From Paeniglutamicibacter sulfureus (lineage in GTDB: Bacteria; Actinomycetota; Actinomycetes; Actinomycetales; Micrococcaceae), in assembly GCF_030512175.1 (NCBI RefSeq), contig NZ_JAULBL010000001.1, forward strand, positions 682,001 to 746,000: a DNA stretch of 64,000 bases. Reading direction: 5' to 3'. Positions 12,648-48,373 of the stretch are shown here, one piece after another. Under the pieces are notes generated by a model, which ran no database searches, was not told where the DNA came from, and worked only from the letters and a program-made list of their open reading frames with translations. Each line of letters starts with the position of its first letter. The first letter of the stretch is position 1. The position numbers and the translations under genes were made by a program.

Positions 12648-13202
12648 GTCCGCACCCTTCCAGGTTCTGGTTTGTGTGGGTTTTCCTGCCCCACCAGTAT
12701 GCGCCGCAGGTTCATTCGCGGCCAGAGTCAGTTCAGTCGAAAATAGTTGTTCGCGAATGCCTGGTCCATACTCATGGGCTCGAGTCTTGAGCCCGATCAG
12801 CCGGCGGAGTGCGTTCCTTGCCGAGCAAGGCTTGAAGTATTTGACTAGCGATTGCCACGGATGGGGGCAAGGGAACGAAGGCCGAAGTAATACCGTGGCC
12901 GCCCCTTGGCCACCGATTGCAGAAGCTCGTACACTCGACGCTCCCCCACGCGCAGCGGTACCGATGGCTACGGCCGACCCGGTTAGCAGATCACCCAGGA
13001 TTCGCCCGTTCATGCCCTGCTGCCGATTCTCGATGCTCACTGTCTCATCTCGCCGGCGCGAATCATTTCAAGCGCAGAAGACTAAACACTAGCGAGCTCA
13101 AAACTTCGAACTGCTTCCCATCCAAACCGATCACCCTGTGGTAAATCAATGTTCCCAACACAAAAAAATGAACAGAGAATAAATCTTGAAGCCATGTCAA
13201 GA
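12648..13202. other. Intergenic stretch without a recognisable gene
   Basis: Frames here are short or are the unlikely upstream extension of the VOC gene. GC content falls toward the right end (after about 13060). No RNA, repeat or promoter could be supported. Confidence 0.5.
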
Positions 13203-13237
13203 TGCTCGCGAAAGGCACGCACCCCATTTCGCGAGCA
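13203..13237 (+). terminator. Strong hairpin upstream of the pilus locus
   Basis: An 11-base perfect stem (TGCTCGCGAAA with its complement), a 13-base loop and a following CTTTTC tract resemble an intrinsic terminator reading rightward. No intact rightward gene lies immediately upstream, so it may insulate the pilus operon or be left over from a lost gene. Confidence 0.5.
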
Positions 13238-13284
13238 CTTTTCATGAGTCAACACGAAGGCTTTACAAGTTCAAACAACTCTCC

Positions 13285-13363
13285 TAGACTCCAAATCAGA
13301 TGCCAGCGGTTGGGGAACCGCCTGGGGGGATTACAAAACGTAATTGGCATCTAATGGGGTCTA
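13285..13363 (+). ncRNA. Candidate structured leader RNA of the Flp/Tad operon
   Basis: Four helices nest into one compact fold. An outer 8-bp stem pairs 13285-13292 with 13356-13363 (one G-U). After a small AAATC/AAT internal loop, a perfect 8-bp stem pairs 13298-13305 (AGATGCCA) with 13345-13352. Inside it sit two hairpins, GCGGTT-GGGG-AACCGC (13306-13321) and ATTAC-AAAAC-GTAAT (13330-13344), joined by CTGGGGGG, which makes a three-way junction. It lies 106 bases before the flp start codon. It does not match the c-di-GMP, SAM, ZTP, cobalamin or glycine riboswitch consensus patterns I know. A cis-regulatory RNA is inferred; the pairings are seen directly. Confidence 0.5.
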
Positions 13364-13413
13364 ATTTATCTTGGGGACCACTTCATTCCGCCAAAATTTC
13401 TCATCAAGAATGA

Positions 13414-13438
13414 TTCGCTGGGGGCGAAAGAATTTCGC
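13414..13438 (+). promoter_or_regulatory. Mutually exclusive hairpins just before the flp ribosome site
   Basis: The segment GCGAAA (13424-13429) can pair upstream with TTCGC (13414-13418, loop TGGGG) or downstream with TTTCGC (13433-13438, loop GAA). Both cannot form together. The pair lies 20 bases before the GGAG ribosome site at 13459-13462, so it could act as a switch element; this is inference. Confidence 0.35.
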
Positions 13439-13469
13439 ACCTTCTTGACGTAGAAAATGGAGTTTCATC

Positions 13470-13679
13470 ATGAACACCTTGTTCGCAAACATCTACATTG
13501 GCCTGTCCACCGTCGCCGGCAGGCTGCGCCGCGAGGAAAAGGGGGCCACCGCCGTTGAGTACGGCATCATGGTCGGGCTGATCGCGGTTGTGATCATTGC
13601 GGCGGTGGGGTTCCTCGGCGAGGACATCAGAGGGCTGTTCCAACAGGTAGTCACCGCCATCCCCGGGGGTAACGCTTAG
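13470..13679 (+). CDS. flp: Flp-family type IVb pilin
   Basis: This is the major pilin of a Tad/Flp tight-adherence pilus. The 69-residue prepilin has a leader rich in charged residues ending RREEKG, then ATAVEYGIMVGLIAVVI, the hydrophobic assembly helix with the conserved Glu-Tyr pair; cleavage is expected after the Gly. GGAG lies seven bases before the ATG. The gene is set apart from the rest of the locus by a 117-base gap with a hairpin, as expected for a highly expressed subunit. Confidence 0.93.
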   Translation: MNTLFANIYIGLSTVAGRLRREEKGATAVEYGIMVGLIAVVIIAAVGFLGEDIRGLFQQVVTAIPGGNA

Positions 13680-13696: not shown

Positions 13697-13742
13697 GTGG
13701 TTCACCGGGTTGCTGGTCATGTAAAGGCGCCCGGCGAACCAC
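13697..13742 (+). terminator. Intercistronic hairpin after flp, possible attenuator
   Basis: GTGGTTC and CCGGG on the left pair with CCCGG and GAACCAC on the right, with one mismatch and a 20-base loop. It lies between flp and the TadE-like gene and has no T-run. It may stabilise or partly terminate the flp message so that pilin exceeds assembly proteins. Confidence 0.4.
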
Positions 13743-13796: not shown

Positions 13797-14183
13797 ATGC
13801 GGCACATCTACAGACGGGAGGAGGGTGCTTCAGCCGTAGAATTCGCCTTGGTCCTCCCATTACTCCTTGCCTTGCTGCTGGGGATTATTGAGTTTGGGTT
13901 TCTGTTCAATCAACAGGTCTCCGCAACTCAGGTTGCCCGAGAAGTAGCACGCGCAGTCGCTGTCCATACTGAAACAACACCGCTGAATTTGAACGCGCTC
14001 CTGCCACAAATGGCTCCGTTGCTAGATCCGGCGAACGTAACGATCCTGCCGGCAACGCCGGTATGCACAGCCAGTACGACCGACTCGCGGGTCACCATCA
14101 CTGTCCAGGTAACGAATTCGTCCTTGTTGGGCATTGGGCCCGACACGATAACGGGGAAGGCGTCAATGCGATGCGGTGGATAA
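13797..14183 (+). CDS. TadE-family pseudopilin-like protein
   Basis: This is a minor pilus component of the TadE family. The 128-residue protein starts with a short basic leader (RHIYRREEGASAVEFALVLP), whose G-A-S-A-V-E-F motif resembles a prepilin peptidase site. A single membrane helix follows and then an extracytoplasmic domain with two cysteines that could form a disulfide. GGGAG precedes the ATG at 13797. It overlaps the next gene by 13 bases. Confidence 0.85.
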   Translation: MRHIYRREEGASAVEFALVLPLLLALLLGIIEFGFLFNQQVSATQVAREVARAVAVHTETTPLNLNALLPQMAPLLDPANVTILPATPVCTASTTDSRVTITVQVTNSSLLGIGPDTITGKASMRCGG

Positions 14184-15202
14184 CCAGGACTCCCACATCC
14201 AACCAACGGGACAGCGAGCGCGGTGCAAGTGCAATTATCGTCGCAATCGTGATGGTCGCACTACTAGGATTCGCTGCTATCTCAATCGATGTGGGGCGCA
14301 TCTACTGGGAACGAGTCCAGCTGCAAAACGGCGCTGATTCCGCAGCGATTTCGGTTGCTCTGGATTGCTCGAAAGGCGCATGTACTGCCGGGGAAGCGAC
14401 GGCTCCCGGGTTCGCCAATGACAACGCCAACGATGCTCACACGAAGATTGAATCGATCACTTATCCGAAACCCGGAACCGTGCGCGTCACAACAGGTGCC
14501 TTGTCAGCGTCGGGGAACGAGGGCTTGGGCATGACGTTCGCAAACATTTTTGGCCTCTCCGAAGTTTCTGTTCCGGCCACTGCGGAGGCTTCCTGGGGGC
14601 CACCCAAGACCACTGCCTCCTTCCCATGGACGGCCCCGTTGTGTGCGTTCAAGAGTCTCCTCAGCCAAGAGCAGCTGGATGACCTTGCGGAATTTGGGCA
14701 CTTTGACGGCGCGCCGAGCAACGAGCGGATCACGCTTCGATCGGATAAGAACGCACCGGAGATTCCCGAGTGTGTCGGCCAGCCGGGTTATGTGAACGGT
14801 GGTTTCGCATGGATCGATTACGACGCCGCCAATTGTCAAGCAACGATCGACCTGTCCAGCGGCGACCCTGTAGCCGGCAGTGACCCAGGAAACAACATCC
14901 CTCAGACCTGCAAGGACGCGCTGGATAATGCGATGGACCATCCAATCCTGTTTCCTATTTTCGACACGTCCAGCGGCACGGGGAATACCGGAACGTACGA
15001 CATCTACGGGCACGGCGCATTCCAAATTACCGGGTACCAATTTTCCGGCTACACAAAAATCGACCCATTGGCGCCACCTTGCGACGGCGGAAACGCACGT
15101 TGCCTACAGGGCTTTTTCACTCTCTATTCGGAGATGGGAGACGGCGGAGAAATCTCAACCGGTCCTTCACTCGGGGGGACCGTTGTCCGCCTAACGAAGT
15201 AA
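14171..15202 (+). CDS. TadG-like pilus assembly protein
   Basis: The N-terminal region RGASAIIVAIVMVALLGFAAI is the membrane helix of the TadE/TadG (Flp pilus assembly, putative Tad) family, followed by DVGRIYWERVQLQNGADSAA, the typical helix after it. The remaining about 270 residues form a secreted region with several cysteines. An ATG at 14171 inside the previous gene is chosen, because the open frame further upstream only covers TadE in another frame. It is 343 residues long. Function is inferred from locus and N-terminus. Confidence 0.8.
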   Translation: MRWITRTPTSNQRDSERGASAIIVAIVMVALLGFAAISIDVGRIYWERVQLQNGADSAAISVALDCSKGACTAGEATAPGFANDNANDAHTKIESITYPKPGTVRVTTGALSASGNEGLGMTFANIFGLSEVSVPATAEASWGPPKTTASFPWTAPLCAFKSLLSQEQLDDLAEFGHFDGAPSNERITLRSDKNAPEIPECVGQPGYVNGGFAWIDYDAANCQATIDLSSGDPVAGSDPGNNIPQTCKDALDNAMDHPILFPIFDTSSGTGNTGTYDIYGHGAFQITGYQFSGYTKIDPLAPPCDGGNARCLQGFFTLYSEMGDGGEISTGPSLGGTVVRLTK

Positions 15203-15242
15203 CTGAATACATTCAAAGAAGCATTAGCCTTGGGGGCACACA

Positions 15243-15986
15243 ATGAAAACTCGGCTGCTTGGGGGCATAGCAGCACTGGTACTGGCAATCGTCGGTACGG
15301 TTCTACTCCTCACCTACGTGCAAGGCGCGGACGCCCGCGCACAATCCTCGCTCGATCCCGTAAAGGTCCTCATCGCCACACGCGACGTGCCTGCCGGCAC
15401 CCCGGTCGCCGAACTGGCCACAGCATTCAAGGAGCAGAGCCTGCCGGCGGTCGCCGTGCCGAAGGATGCGCTGGACACGCTCGCGGACCAGGACGGCAAG
15501 GTCTTGGCGCAGGCGGTTACCGCTGGTGAACAGCTCCTCGCGGCCAAACTCGTCACAGAGGATTCGCTCCTCACCCCCGGGACCGTCGAGGTCCCCAAAG
15601 GAAAACAGGAGATCACCGTCCTTCTGGAGCCCGAGCGCGTGGCCGGCGGCAACCTCCGCGCCGGGGACACCGTGGGTGTCTTCGGCAGCTTCACCGTCAA
15701 GGAAAAGAACGACAAGGACGCCGATGAAGTCGAGATCACCAAGCTCCTCGACGAGCAGGTCCTGGTCACCGCCATCCAGATCGCGGCAGGCGAGGCGGAA
15801 AGCACCGCCGAGGGAGCTGCGGCACTGCCGGTAGGTTCGGCCTATGTCACCTTCGGCGTCGACTCCGCCCAAGCGGCCAAGATCATCCACACCCGCGAGT
15901 TCGGCCTGGTCTGGCTGACCAAGCAGAACGAGGACACCGCCAAGGGCGACACCCGCGTCTGGGAAATCAACCAGGTGCTGAAATGA
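15243..15986 (+). CDS. cpaB: Flp pilus assembly protein CpaB/RcpC
   Basis: The 247-residue protein has an N-terminal membrane helix and a SAF domain (VLIATRDVPAGTPVAELATAF), as in CpaB/RcpC periplasmic assembly proteins. In Gram-positive hosts it would sit on the outer face of the membrane with no secretin partner. The ATG is at 15243, and the stop codon overlaps the tadZ start (ATGA). Confidence 0.85.
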   Translation: MKTRLLGGIAALVLAIVGTVLLLTYVQGADARAQSSLDPVKVLIATRDVPAGTPVAELATAFKEQSLPAVAVPKDALDTLADQDGKVLAQAVTAGEQLLAAKLVTEDSLLTPGTVEVPKGKQEITVLLEPERVAGGNLRAGDTVGVFGSFTVKEKNDKDADEVEITKLLDEQVLVTAIQIAAGEAESTAEGAAALPVGSAYVTFGVDSAQAAKIIHTREFGLVWLTKQNEDTAKGDTRVWEINQVLK

Positions 15987-17175
15987 GCCGCTTTCTGCTC
16001 CTGACCGACTCCGCCGAGTTCGAACGCCGCGTCCTGGCCGCCGTCAAGGGTGCCATGCCCGGCGCCGTCCAGCGCATCCCAGCCGGGGCCGCCAACCTCT
16101 CGCCGCACGATCTGCTCGCTCGCAGCATCGGCGAGACGACCGACGTCGTCCTCCTGGGCCCGGACACTGACCGTGAGGCCGCCCTCCGACTGGCCACCGC
16201 GCTGGACCTGCTGAACCCCGACATCTCCGTGGTGCTCACCGCCGGCGCGGATCCGCAGCTGGTCATGCTTGCCATGCGTGCCGGTGTCCGGGATATCACG
16301 GAACCCGATGCCGATCCCGCCACCCTGCGCGTGCTCCTGGAGCGCGCCTGCCTGTCCACGGACGGGCGGCGGCGCCAGTCCGGCGAAGGCGGTTCCAATG
16401 AACGACGCCGGGGTCGCGTCGTTGCGGTCATGTCGCCCAAGGGCGGCGTGGGCAAGACCACGGTGGCGACCAACCTTGCCGTCGGGCTGGCGAAGACCGC
16501 CCCGATGGGGGTAGTGATCGTGGACCTGGACCTGCAGTTCGGCGACGTCGCCGGCGCCCTTAACGTGGATCCCGAGCACACCATCACAGACGCCGTCTTC
16601 GGCGCAGCCGTCCAGGACTCAATGGTCCTCAAGGCCTTCCTGACGGTCGACGACACAGGTGTCTACGCGCTATGCGGGCCCAAGAGCCCGGCCGACGCGG
16701 ACCTCATCACCCCGGAACAGGTCGCCGTGCTGATCAACCAGCTCGCGGCCGAGTTTCGGTACGTGGTCCTGGACACGGCACCCGGCCTCGGCGAACACCT
16801 GCTCGCGGCGCTCGAACAGGCCACCGACGCCGTGTGGGTGTGCGGCATGGACGTGCCCAGCATCCGCGGGCTGAACACGGGGTTCGGCGTCCTGCGCGAG
16901 CTCCAGCTCATCCCACAGGGGCGCCACGTGGTGCTGAACTTCGCGGACCGTCGCAGCGGCCTCACTGTCCAGGACGTCGAGGCCTCCATCGGGGTCCCGG
17001 TCGACGCCGTGGTCCCCCGGTCCCGCGCCGTCCCGCTCAGCACCAACAAGGGGACGCCGTTGCTGACCGACCACTCGCACGATGCCGCGGCACGCGGACT
17101 GATGAAGCTTGCGCGCCGCTTCGACGCCGACCAATCAGCCAGCAACCGCAAGATCCACCGCAGGGAAGTGGTCCG

Positions 17176-17179
<4 letters not shown>
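15983..17179 (+). CDS. tadZ: TadZ/CpaE-type ParA-like ATPase
   Basis: This is a localisation ATPase of Tad pilus systems. Residues 1-135 form a receiver-like domain without a clear phospho-acceptor pattern. The second half is a MinD/ParA-type domain with the deviant Walker A motif SPKGGVGKTTVATN near residue 150 and VIVDLDLQFGD as the Walker A' region. The 398-residue length is typical. It overlaps cpaB and tadA by four bases each (ATGA), so the three are translationally coupled. Confidence 0.87.
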
Positions 17180-18746
<1,567 letters not shown>

Positions 18747-18753
<7 letters not shown>

Positions 18754-19703
18754 CCATGGAGGGGATCCTGCTCGCAGCCGGTCTACTCGCTGGGCTCACC
18801 GCCATGTTGTTGCTGTTGTTGGTGGTGCTGAGGCCCGTCAGCGCCGAGGTGCCCATCGAACGACGCCGGATGGGCGAGGCGGCCCTTCAGTCGCCGTCCC
18901 TGCTCAGCCGCTTCAGCGGTGCGACGGTCAGGGCCGTGGAGCGCAACGCGACCGCAAGGGCGGGCGGGCCCTTTGGACGGGGCGCGCTGCAGGCCGCGGG
19001 CGTCAAACAGGATCCGGCGGAATTCCTGGTCCTCGTAGGGTCCGCGGCCCTGGCCGCCGGCGTGCTCGGCCTGCTCCTGGGCGGAGCCGGTCTCGCCGTG
19101 CTCCTGGCGTTCCTGACCCCGGCCGGCGCCTGGGCTTTCCTGCAAATACGCGCAGAACGACGTAGGACCAAATTCGAAGACCAACTGCCGGACATGATCA
19201 TGACCATCTCCGGCAGCCTGCGTGCGGGACACTCGGTGTTGCGCGCCCTCGACGGCGCAGCACAGGAGTTCGATTCGCCGATGGCCGAGGAATTGGGCCG
19301 AATCGTCAATGAGTCACGGGTGGGGCGCGACGCCGAACAGACGATGTTGGAGACCGCGGTGCGCATGAGGTCTGAGGACTTCTCCTGGGTGGCCGGGGCG
19401 ATCCAGATCAACCGCGAGGTCGGCGGAGACCTGGCCGTGGTGTTGGACCAGGTCGGCGAGACGATCCGCGAGCGTTCCCAAATCAAGGGACAGGTGAGGG
19501 CCCTGTCCGCTGAGGGCAAGTTCTCGGCGTACATCCTGGTGGGACTGCCGTTCGGGATCAGCGGCCTGTTGTTCCTTATGAATCCGGGCTACATCGGGAC
19601 ACTATTCAGCCATCCACTGGGCATCGGCATGCTCGTGGTGGGTGGCATCATGATGGCGATCGGCTCCTTCTGGATGAGCCGCATGGTCAAGATCAAGTTC
19701 TAG
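18747..19703 (+). CDS. tadB: TadB inner-membrane platform protein (T2SSF)
   Basis: This is a type II secretion F-domain protein forming the pilus platform with TadC. The 318-residue protein has an N-terminal helix pair, the cytoplasmic T2SSF core (LPDMIMTISGSLRAGHSVLRAL) and two C-terminal membrane segments. A GTG at 18747 overlaps tadA by seven bases; a GTG at 18750 and an ATG at 18756 are alternatives. Confidence 0.88.
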
Positions 19704-19713
19704 GGGGAAGACC

Positions 19714-20607
19714 ATGGGAATAACAGCCATCGGATGGATATCCATAGCGCTGGTGGTGCTGCCGCTCTCGTTCATCGTGTGGGGATTCGTCTCGGTGGAC
19801 CGCAACCAACTGGTGCTGGTGCGGCAAAACCTTTCGAGGTCCGCAGTGGCAACCGGCGAAGAAATCAAAAGCAGCGGCGACAACGAATTCGCGGCACTGG
19901 CCCGGCGTCTGACACCCGGCAGCTACGCGGCGAAACTGGACCGCATGCTGGCCATGGCCGGCCGGACGGCATCGTGGCCGTTGGATCGCGTGTTGATGAT
20001 GAAGCCGTTGTTGGCGCTGGGCGGTGCCCTGATGGGTGTCCTCCTGTTTTCGTCCAACCCGGGAACGGGCATATTCGTTCTCGGCGTGGCCCTGACGGCA
20101 TTCGGTTATTTCCTGCCGGACCTCCTGGTCTACAACAACGGCATCAAGCGCCAGCAGGCGATCCAGTTGGAGCTGCCCAACACGCTGGACCAACTGCTGA
20201 TCTCTGTTGAGGCGGGGCTGGGTCTGGAATCCGCCATGGCACGTGTGGCCGCGGGAGGACAGGGTCCTCTGGCGGAGGAAATGGGACGCACACTCCAGGA
20301 GATGCAGGTGGGTCGTTCGCGCAGGGAAGCCTACGCCGCGATGGCCGACCGCTCCTCCGTTGCGGACCTCAAGTCCTTCGTCCGGGCGGTAGCCCAGGCA
20401 GACAAGTACGGGATTGGCATCGCAAGGGTGTTGCGGACGCAGGCGGGCCAAATGCGCATCAAGCGCCGGCAGCGGGCCGAGGAAACGGCGATGAAGTTGC
20501 CGGTCAAGATCCTGTTTCCGCTTTTGGTTTTCATTTTCCCGACGCTGTTCATCGTGATCCTGGGGCCGGCGGCCATCAACATCATGAAGAGCGGGATCTT
20601 TGGCTGA
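19714..20607 (+). CDS. tadC: TadC inner-membrane platform protein (T2SSF)
   Basis: This is the second platform protein of the pilus. The 297 residues include a T2SSF domain (LPNTLDQLLISVEAGLGLESAM, SFVRAVAQADKYGIGIARVL) and a C-terminal membrane helix. A GGGGGA ribosome site lies upstream. It is the last gene of the locus; no prepilin peptidase is encoded in this window. Confidence 0.88.
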   Translation: MGITAIGWISIALVVLPLSFIVWGFVSVDRNQLVLVRQNLSRSAVATGEEIKSSGDNEFAALARRLTPGSYAAKLDRMLAMAGRTASWPLDRVLMMKPLLALGGALMGVLLFSSNPGTGIFVLGVALTAFGYFLPDLLVYNNGIKRQQAIQLELPNTLDQLLISVEAGLGLESAMARVAAGGQGPLAEEMGRTLQEMQVGRSRREAYAAMADRSSVADLKSFVRAVAQADKYGIGIARVLRTQAGQMRIKRRQRAEETAMKLPVKILFPLLVFIFPTLFIVILGPAAINIMKSGIFG

Positions 20608-34787: not shown

Positions 34788-34854
34788 GATGTTGAACTCC
34801 AGTGGGTGAGGGTTGTTCTTCGGGCAGGGTCACATTGCGAATCATTCAACCCCC

Positions 34855-34938
34855 GGACCCAGGCGCGCGGTCCGTGGTTAGCTCATGTGCCGCTCCCCGG
34901 TGGTTCACCCCACCCAACGCCAGTTGCGACACCCTTCG
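34855..34938 (-). promoter_or_regulatory. ZTP riboswitch (pfl motif) upstream of glyA
   Basis: Read on the minus strand, the region contains the conserved pfl elements in order: CGCAACTGGCG, then CCACCGGGGAGCG after a GGGTGG-containing loop, and CCGCGCGCCTGGGT at the 3' side. These match the ZTP/ZMP-sensing riboswitch consensus known to control folate and purine genes such as glyA, folD and purH. It ends about 67 bases before the glyA start codon, leaving room for an expression platform. Confidence 0.85.
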
Positions 34939-47806: not shown

Positions 47807-47888
47807 GAGGCATCAGGGATCGCCACAAAAGCCCCAGGGAACCGTAACGGATCTCCTGCGGCGATGATGAGTGAACGCTGAAGCGGCT

Positions 47889-48000
47889 CCATCGCTTCTG
47901 GCAGTAGCACCCTCGCCGATCGGAGTCCCCGCGAGGGGAATCCATCGGACGATGGTTGCTGCGGCGTCAACGAGCCAGATCTCTCAGCCGCTCTTGATGG
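47889..48000 (-). promoter_or_regulatory. SAM-I (S-box) riboswitch controlling the methionine operon
   Basis: Read on the minus strand, the region has the S-box order: CCATCAAGAG at the 5' side, a GCGGC/GCCGC helix, CTGGCTCGTTGACGCCGCAGCAACC-like core split by the loop, a TCCCC/GGGGA hairpin, GGTGCTACTGCC, and GATGG closing the first stem with CCATC. It lies about 107 bases before metF. High S-adenosylmethionine is expected to shut off metF-metE-metY-metB. Confidence 0.85.
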
Positions 48001-48373
48001 TTGATGTATTCATCTTGGAACAGGTTCGAGGGCACGTGCAAGGAGCGTGCCGGCACAGCCGTCACGAAGGGCAAAATCACTTCATGTGTCCACACGGCGT
48101 CATTTTCGCTGGTCCGCCGCGGTCACATTGTTACGGCCGTCCGTTCGCGTTTTTCGTTTCATCCTCGGGGATTTCCGGCACCGGCATGACGTCGCGGGAC
48201 TTCCGTGAAGCCAATGTGACGCGAAGGAGTGGCGTGCTCGCGACCGGTTTCCGGTGCCGGGATCCGAGGGTGGGGGAATGGTTTTCACCCGTGGTGCCAC
48301 GGTCTTGACGGACTGCCGGGGCGGAGTTGCGACCCCACCGCGATGACCCTGTTCCCTTTTTCGTGAAGCCGCT
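48001..48373. other. Intergenic stretch between the SAM riboswitch and the permease gene
   Basis: No gene or RNA could be supported. A promoter for the riboswitch transcript must lie near 48001-48060, but no clear -35/-10 pair was found. A short perfect palindrome (CCCCCTGC/GCAGGGGG, 48374-48389) abuts the permease stop codon. Confidence 0.4.

Follow-up and report, generated by a model that had tools for sequence, protein, structure and literature searches.

The window analysed here, a 64-kb stretch of a Paeniglutamicibacter genome of 4.55 Mb, carries the pilin gene flp followed by a tad operon (Table 1). The gene order after flp is TadE, TadE/G-like, RcpC/CpaB, an AAA_31/ParA-type ATPase, a TadA-type ATPase (T2SSE), and two T2SSF proteins; the ParA-type ATPase is TadZ-like, with TadZ_N scoring below the Pfam cut-off. 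A first-pass annotation of this DNA had placed a folded leader RNA before a Flp/Tad pilus operon, and the operon is real, with Pfam matches to Flp_Fap, TadE, Tad, RcpC, T2SSE, and T2SSF. A strong hairpin (13697-13742) separates flp from tadE, and hairpins of differing sequence occupy this gap in all three copies examined (the window's own, G010, and G004a). The hairpin could perhaps set the ratio of pilin to machinery. Just 5′ of the flp promoter lies an 11-bp inverted repeat (TGCTCGCGAAA/TTTCGCGAGCA, 13203-13237) followed by CTTTT, and its 3′ half together with CTTTT was found twice in the genome. Elsewhere in the window, Rfam places a ZMP/ZTP riboswitch at 34850-34937 and a SAM riboswitch at 47886-48003, both on the minus strand.

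Table 1 Features of the flp leader and the adjoining genes (positions in the window)
Feature	Position	Strand	Remarks
flp promoter	13262-13290	+	-35 TTTACA 13262-13267, 17-nt spacer, -10 TAGACT 13285-13290
Predicted transcription start	13298 (about ±2 nt)	+	about 7 nt past the -10 box, inferred
P1 5′ strand AGAUGCC	13298-13304	+	pairs with 13346-13352
P2 hairpin	13306-13321	+	6 bp (13306-13311 with 13316-13321), loop GGGG 13312-13315
J2/3 CUGGGGGG	13322-13329	+	candidate long-range (pseudoknot) strand
P3 hairpin	13330-13344	+	5 bp, loop AAAAC; both-side changes in every modelled pair
P1 3′ strand GGCAUCU	13346-13352	+	both-side changes with the 5′ strand
P4	13358-13379	+	GGUCU 13358-13362 with GGACC 13375-13379
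UCCGCCAA strand	13387-13394	+	pairs with J2/3 or, in other genus copies, with Shine-Dalgarno UGGAG
Lower leader stem	13397-13456	+	three helices
Lower stem helix UUUCU/AGAAA	13397-13401 with 13452-13456	+	
Lower stem helix UCAAGAA/UUCUUGA	13404-13410 with 13442-13448	+	
Lower stem inner helix GCGAAA/UUUCGC	13424-13429 with 13433-13438	+	
Shine-Dalgarno GGAG of flp	13459-13462	+	7 nt 5′ of ATG
flp pilin, 69 aa	13470-13679	+	Pfam Flp_Fap, E 1.2e-14
Remaining tad operon	13797-20607	+	Pfam domains and reading frames

A consensus scan identified a sigma-70-type promoter in front of flp (TTTACA-N17-TAGACT, 9 of 12 consensus matches). Its -10 hexamer sits within 13285-13292, the 5′ arm of an outer stem that the first-pass annotation had drawn around the inner helices. 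The TAnnnT of this hexamer is preserved in all 15 leaders compared, which come from three genera; in other genera the arm reads TAGAGT, TAAGCT, TACGCT, or TACTGT, and only TAnnnT is constant. Among the 10 copies from the genus, the changes in the outer stem (in G148 and G002) are all one-sided, two of them breaking a pair and one giving G-U, and the 3′ arm is partly used by P4 instead (GGUCU with GGACC). With the -10 box in its 5′ arm and no two-sided change, the outer stem was rejected as the likely reading of this part of the RNA. Because the arm contains the -10 box, the RNA start is placed near 13298, and the transcript probably begins at P1. The limits originally given for the element, 13285-13363, also had to be redrawn. 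In the 10 copies from the genus, the sequences diverge upstream of the -35 box, and the conserved block runs from this box to the flp start codon. Promoter and entire leader, from 13262 to about 13472, together form the conserved unit. Judged from the sequence, the transcribed element should be the inner three-way junction P1/P2/P3 (13298-13352), lying within a leader that reaches the flp start codon. An upstream ORF from the ATG at 13300 was considered by eye and rejected: in G004a, G010, G007, and G002 indels or stop codons interrupt its frame, and it carries several non-synonymous changes, the frame being open in G003a.

All four pairings described by the first-pass annotation are present at 13285-13363, 106 bases 5′ of the ATG at 13470. 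The interval has a minimum free energy of -33.2 kcal/mol (z -4.89) and none of 200 shuffles was as low, but z <= -4.9 is also reached by 23 of 3198 segments of 79 nt, taken every 40 nt along both strands of the window and compared with 40 shuffles apiece. The z score drops to -1.2 without the outer arm, when 79 nt are counted from the predicted start at 13298, and the opposite strand of 13285-13363 reaches -7.3; thermodynamics alone is therefore insufficient, and folding energy by itself is not decisive as proof of the element. P1-P3 alone (56 nt) have a z score of -3.1 in the window and about 0 (-0.8 to +0.6) in three g21 leaders. When whole leaders are folded, the minimum-energy structure lacks the three-way junction in G010, in G004b, and in all three leaders from g21.

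Within the genus Paeniglutamicibacter, the leader is present in 10 copies in 8 of 15 genomes, every one 5′ of flp. These eight genomes are exactly those with a flp match, and the remaining seven have neither. G003 and G004 each possess two flp copies with their own leaders (L006/L015 and L004/L014, respectively); the pilin C-termini have diverged and the leaders are similar. A second flp type in three leader-bearing genomes (L025, L027, and L028) gave no match to the leader model at E<=10. Over the 45 pairs of genus copies, with gaps scored as differences, mean identity is 0.87 for the leader, 0.67 for the flp coding sequence, and 0.54 for its third codon positions, and falls to 0.24 for the 150 nt upstream and 0.30 for the 120 nt past the gene. 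The leader is more similar than the coding sequence in all 45 pairs. Positions 13391-13472 are invariant at 63 of 82 sites, and 15 of the 18 pairs in the lower stem are standard in all 10 copies, most without any variation; one pair of its inner helix is A-U in six copies, U-G in two, C-G in one, and unpaired in one. A leader conserved beyond the pilin itself offers a testable control point.

Four further leaders lie 5′ of flp in two other genera (G042, G060, G161, and G033) and were first spotted by eye among 26 upstream stretches. We compared them with covariance models built from the genus copies (R1), from the same set plus G042 and G060 (R2), and from all 14 leaders (R3). R1 matched the G042 leader before flp with 38.1 bits (E 2e-5, one genome), G060 weakly (16 bits, E 0.087), and G161 partially (E 2.5). 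R2, which had neither G161 nor G033 in training, scored them at 22.4 bits (E 0.0019) and 14.5 bits (E 0.15), respectively, among 25 loci, and both matches fell at the place expected relative to flp; in the same test L064, a pre-selected weak match located elsewhere than before flp, reached 21.5 bits, above G033. L064 (1501-1609, genus g23) is also a weak R1 match (23.4 bits, E 0.066 over 345 genomes) and lies just 5′ of an ECF-sigma-like frame.

Wider scans were made with the same models. Among 395 family genomes, R3 matched 13 at E<=0.1; twelve of these account for the 14 training copies, and the match in the thirteenth, G242 (E 0.05), looks like chance, so that no new copy was gained. Over 396 order genomes, R2 returned nothing beyond the window's own genome and G060, which were both in its training set, and G033 escaped it; R3 over 394 class genomes returned the own genome and four weak, chance-like matches (E 0.0036 to 0.07). 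Weak copies may be missed owing to the stricter filters in these large scans. The phage and plasmid collections contained no match to the leader. Weak DNA matches in other genera (L009-L013) were taken as chance, judged by their reading frames, and the model matches L064-L073, L076-L079, and L093-L097 were taken as chance by eye; many of the latter fall within what seem to be coding frames, L068 resembles an intergenic hairpin, and L078 and L079 were judged on a partial view. A flp match was obtained in 45 of 149 family genomes; 8 of the 45 have the leader, so many flp genes are without it. Four of five g21 genomes possess flp of this kind and three of the four have the three-way junction; the fourth, G083, keeps only the promoter and the P2 region and lacks the P1 3′ strand. 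The accepted copies come from three genera and all precede flp, and they consequently provide no regulon that would hint at a ligand.

Other flp genes have leaders of different types. One type, about 150 nt 5′ of flp in genus g8 (L032, L042, L047, and L050) and genus g25 (L039 and L043), carries a 5′ stretch resembling a hairpin, its loop rich in G, together with a CAACUCC strand. This strand is complementary to the ribosome-binding site GGAGUUG (shortened to GGAGUU in g25), and a GUUG close by offers it another partner. A third type, recognized by eye in L025, L027, L028, L033, L041, L046, and L048, has a TTGCTA-like -10 box, a CAGGAG ribosome-binding site, and in several cases a short hairpin such as GCTGGT...ACCAGC.

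Covariation was counted over 14 leaders; L036, from G083, was excluded from alignments A5-A7 and models R2 and R3 because the P1 3′ strand was not found there. Both-side changes occur in 12 of 22 base pairs in an alignment that was fitted to the covariance model and so leans towards the structure; none of 500 shuffles scored as high, slid controls gave 0-5, and 95.2% of cells are paired. P1 has both-side changes in two of seven pairs (90.8% of cells paired), U-A being replaced by C-G in 3 of 14 leaders and the outermost pair, which is absent in 6 of 14, being changed in 1 of 14. P2 has them in three of six pairs (96.4%), and P3 in all four modelled pairs (100%), its loops being 4-5 nt long in 14 of 14 leaders and GNRA-type in four copies from other genera. 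P3 is the best supported helix. The three of five P4 pairs with both-side changes all owe them to badly aligned distant-genus rows; the 10 genus copies show no such change in P4, with 98% of cells paired. Within the genus, both-side changes are found in 4 of 23 pairs, 6 of 500 shuffles are as high, and 96.4% of cells are paired. The count of further pair types did not exceed that of the shuffles (500/500 for the genus, 206/500 for the 14 leaders), and we counted this against over-reading the covariation.

The one-sided changes point to the plus strand as the RNA, since 13 of 14 yield G-U pairs on this strand, which equal A-C mismatches on the opposite one. Conservation of the helices, proposed at the outset as a check, holds for the inner helices, which are conserved and covary across the 14 leaders; compensatory changes in the four stems were to count as support, and they were found in P1, P2, and P3 and not in the outer stem. 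Conserved helices with compensatory changes before a single gene type, flp in 14 of 14 cases, are as expected of a structured cis-regulatory leader, and from the promoter position the element would be transcribed with the gene. If conservation instead acted on DNA, as an operator or promoter with an incidental RNA fold, the identity of the outer arm with the -10 box and the beginning of the conserved block at the -35 box would be accounted for, but P1, P2, and P3 change on both sides across genera and conservation runs about 170 nt beyond the -10 box, making this explanation highly improbable. A functional RNA leader before flp is very likely.

We regard a cis-acting structured leader that adjusts translation of the Flp pilin as the best explanation, with about an even chance of being correct; that the leader controls the amount of pilin is probable. 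Transcription from TTTACA-N17-TAGACT, starting at about 13298, would give a leader about 172 nt long, folded at its 5′ end into the three-way junction P1, P2, and P3, followed by P4 and then by a long stem up to the Shine-Dalgarno region. A strand at about -83 would have two alternative partners: pairing with J2/3 would keep the ribosome-binding site accessible, and pairing with UGGAG would shut it. The state of the junction would thereby set pilin translation, and the balance might be tipped by a small molecule, by a protein (for example, a component of the pilus), or by folding during transcription.

Several features of the leaders bear on this model. In nine of the 10 copies from the genus, the strand 79-85 nt 5′ of the ATG contains CCUCC or CCUUC, of which CUCC/CUUC can pair with GGAG; the strands matching 13387-13394 in other genus copies are UCCUCCAA, UCCUUCAU, and similar sequences. 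The window's genome alone among the 10 copies has a G at 13390, which weakens both the J2/3 and the Shine-Dalgarno pairings. The top duplex partner of J2/3 starts 79-85 nt 5′ of the ATG in all 14 leaders, with energies within the 5% tail in two (G004b and G033). In six leaders, shuffling the downstream sequence gave a partner position of -79 to -85 in 6 to 9% of trials, and shuffling J2/3 gave it in 5 to 64%. As shuffled J2/3 often reaches the same C-rich site, the pairing of J2/3 with the strand near -83, a candidate pseudoknot, is suggestive.

The predicted unpaired probability of the Shine-Dalgarno sequence is <=0.24 in 9 of 10 genus copies. The site in the window's own leader is more open, at 0.49, or 0.28 at 37 °C when less coding sequence is included. 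Set against 40 shuffled leaders, Shine-Dalgarno pairing reaches the 5% tail in just three of the 15 cases (G003a, G007, and G060), and the direct Shine-Dalgarno duplex energy is beyond shuffles in only 1 of 14, G060, where an anti-Shine-Dalgarno helix of 12 bp is matched by none of 300 shuffles. The two pairings would be mutually exclusive, J2/3 and the Shine-Dalgarno sequence vying for the -83 strand, with energies seldom beyond shuffles. An RNA thermometer, with a Shine-Dalgarno helix that opens on warming, would suit the A/U-rich stem in that region; this possibility is very improbable, as the predicted unpaired probability gains <=0.18 from 5 to 42 °C and stays <=0.49 in all 14 leaders.

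The main rival to translational control is a stabilizer, in which the 5′-terminal P1 and the hairpins would protect an abundant pilin transcript against RNases without any switching. P1 starts at the predicted 5′ end, several other flp leaders in the family also open with a hairpin of different sequence (by eye), and strong hairpins are found downstream of flp in the three copies examined as well. The near-invariance of unpaired G-runs and of the leader's 3′ portion, where 63 of 82 positions do not vary, would be left unexplained, however, and we consider a pure stabilizer somewhat unlikely. A G-quadruplex formed by the G-runs was considered, but some of the runs are lost in g21.

A metabolite or nucleotide riboswitch, with P1-P3 as the aptamer, would be a special case of translational control. 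The three-way junction has loop and joining bases that are conserved in the genus, and the candidate pseudoknot and anti-Shine-Dalgarno strand would fit such a device. The accepted copies, in turn, are confined to three genera and occur only 5′ of flp, Rfam gives no match, and the G-runs are partly missing in g21; we consider a riboswitch rather unlikely. The joint proposal that a riboswitch-like junction with the J2/3 pseudoknot senses a signal and opens the pilin ribosome-binding site is tentative and, in our estimate, unlikely; a nucleotide second messenger, a starvation signal, or a pilus protein would be candidate signals under this same proposal.

Published titles and abstract openings that we surveyed contain no report of such a flp leader and none of post-transcriptional control of a Tad pilin in actinobacteria, and the words ‘riboswitch’ and ‘untranslated’ are absent from the available parts of PMC6667448 and PMC8467076. 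In Micrococcus luteus, DNA is taken up with the help of Flp pili (PMC4322843). In Rfam 15, a search of the window at the gathering threshold gave no match at 13285-13363, a search of 13050-13500 at E<=10 gave three matches that were all under the gathering threshold, and the 15 related loci gave none at E<=0.5. The earlier remark that no familiar riboswitch class fits the fold agrees with this absence of matches to the element and its related loci. The leader most likely represents an RNA family that is absent from Rfam 15 and narrowly distributed.

The c-di-GMP-I and c-di-GMP-II riboswitches control genes for pili and adhesion. The flp leader resembles them in its position before a pilus gene, but their Rfam models do not match it and their topology is different. 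ANTAR target RNAs consist of two hairpins with hexanucleotide loops, in which A occupies position 1 and G position 4. By this definition the flp leader differs from them, its P2 loop being GGGG and its P3 loop AAAAC, without A1/G4 hexaloops; by eye, no P3 loop among the 14 has six nucleotides. Paired neighbouring hairpins in an actinobacterial RNA are the shared feature (PMC8164766). The flpD RNA motif (RF01737), listed for Euryarchaeota in a table of PMC2864571, is similar in name only, and RF01737 has no match here. Compared with translational riboswitches, the flp leader is restricted to one gene type and three genera and has no Rfam class, but it shares with them and with anti-Shine-Dalgarno leaders a 5′ domain of the junction type and, after it, a strand able to cover the ribosome-binding site.
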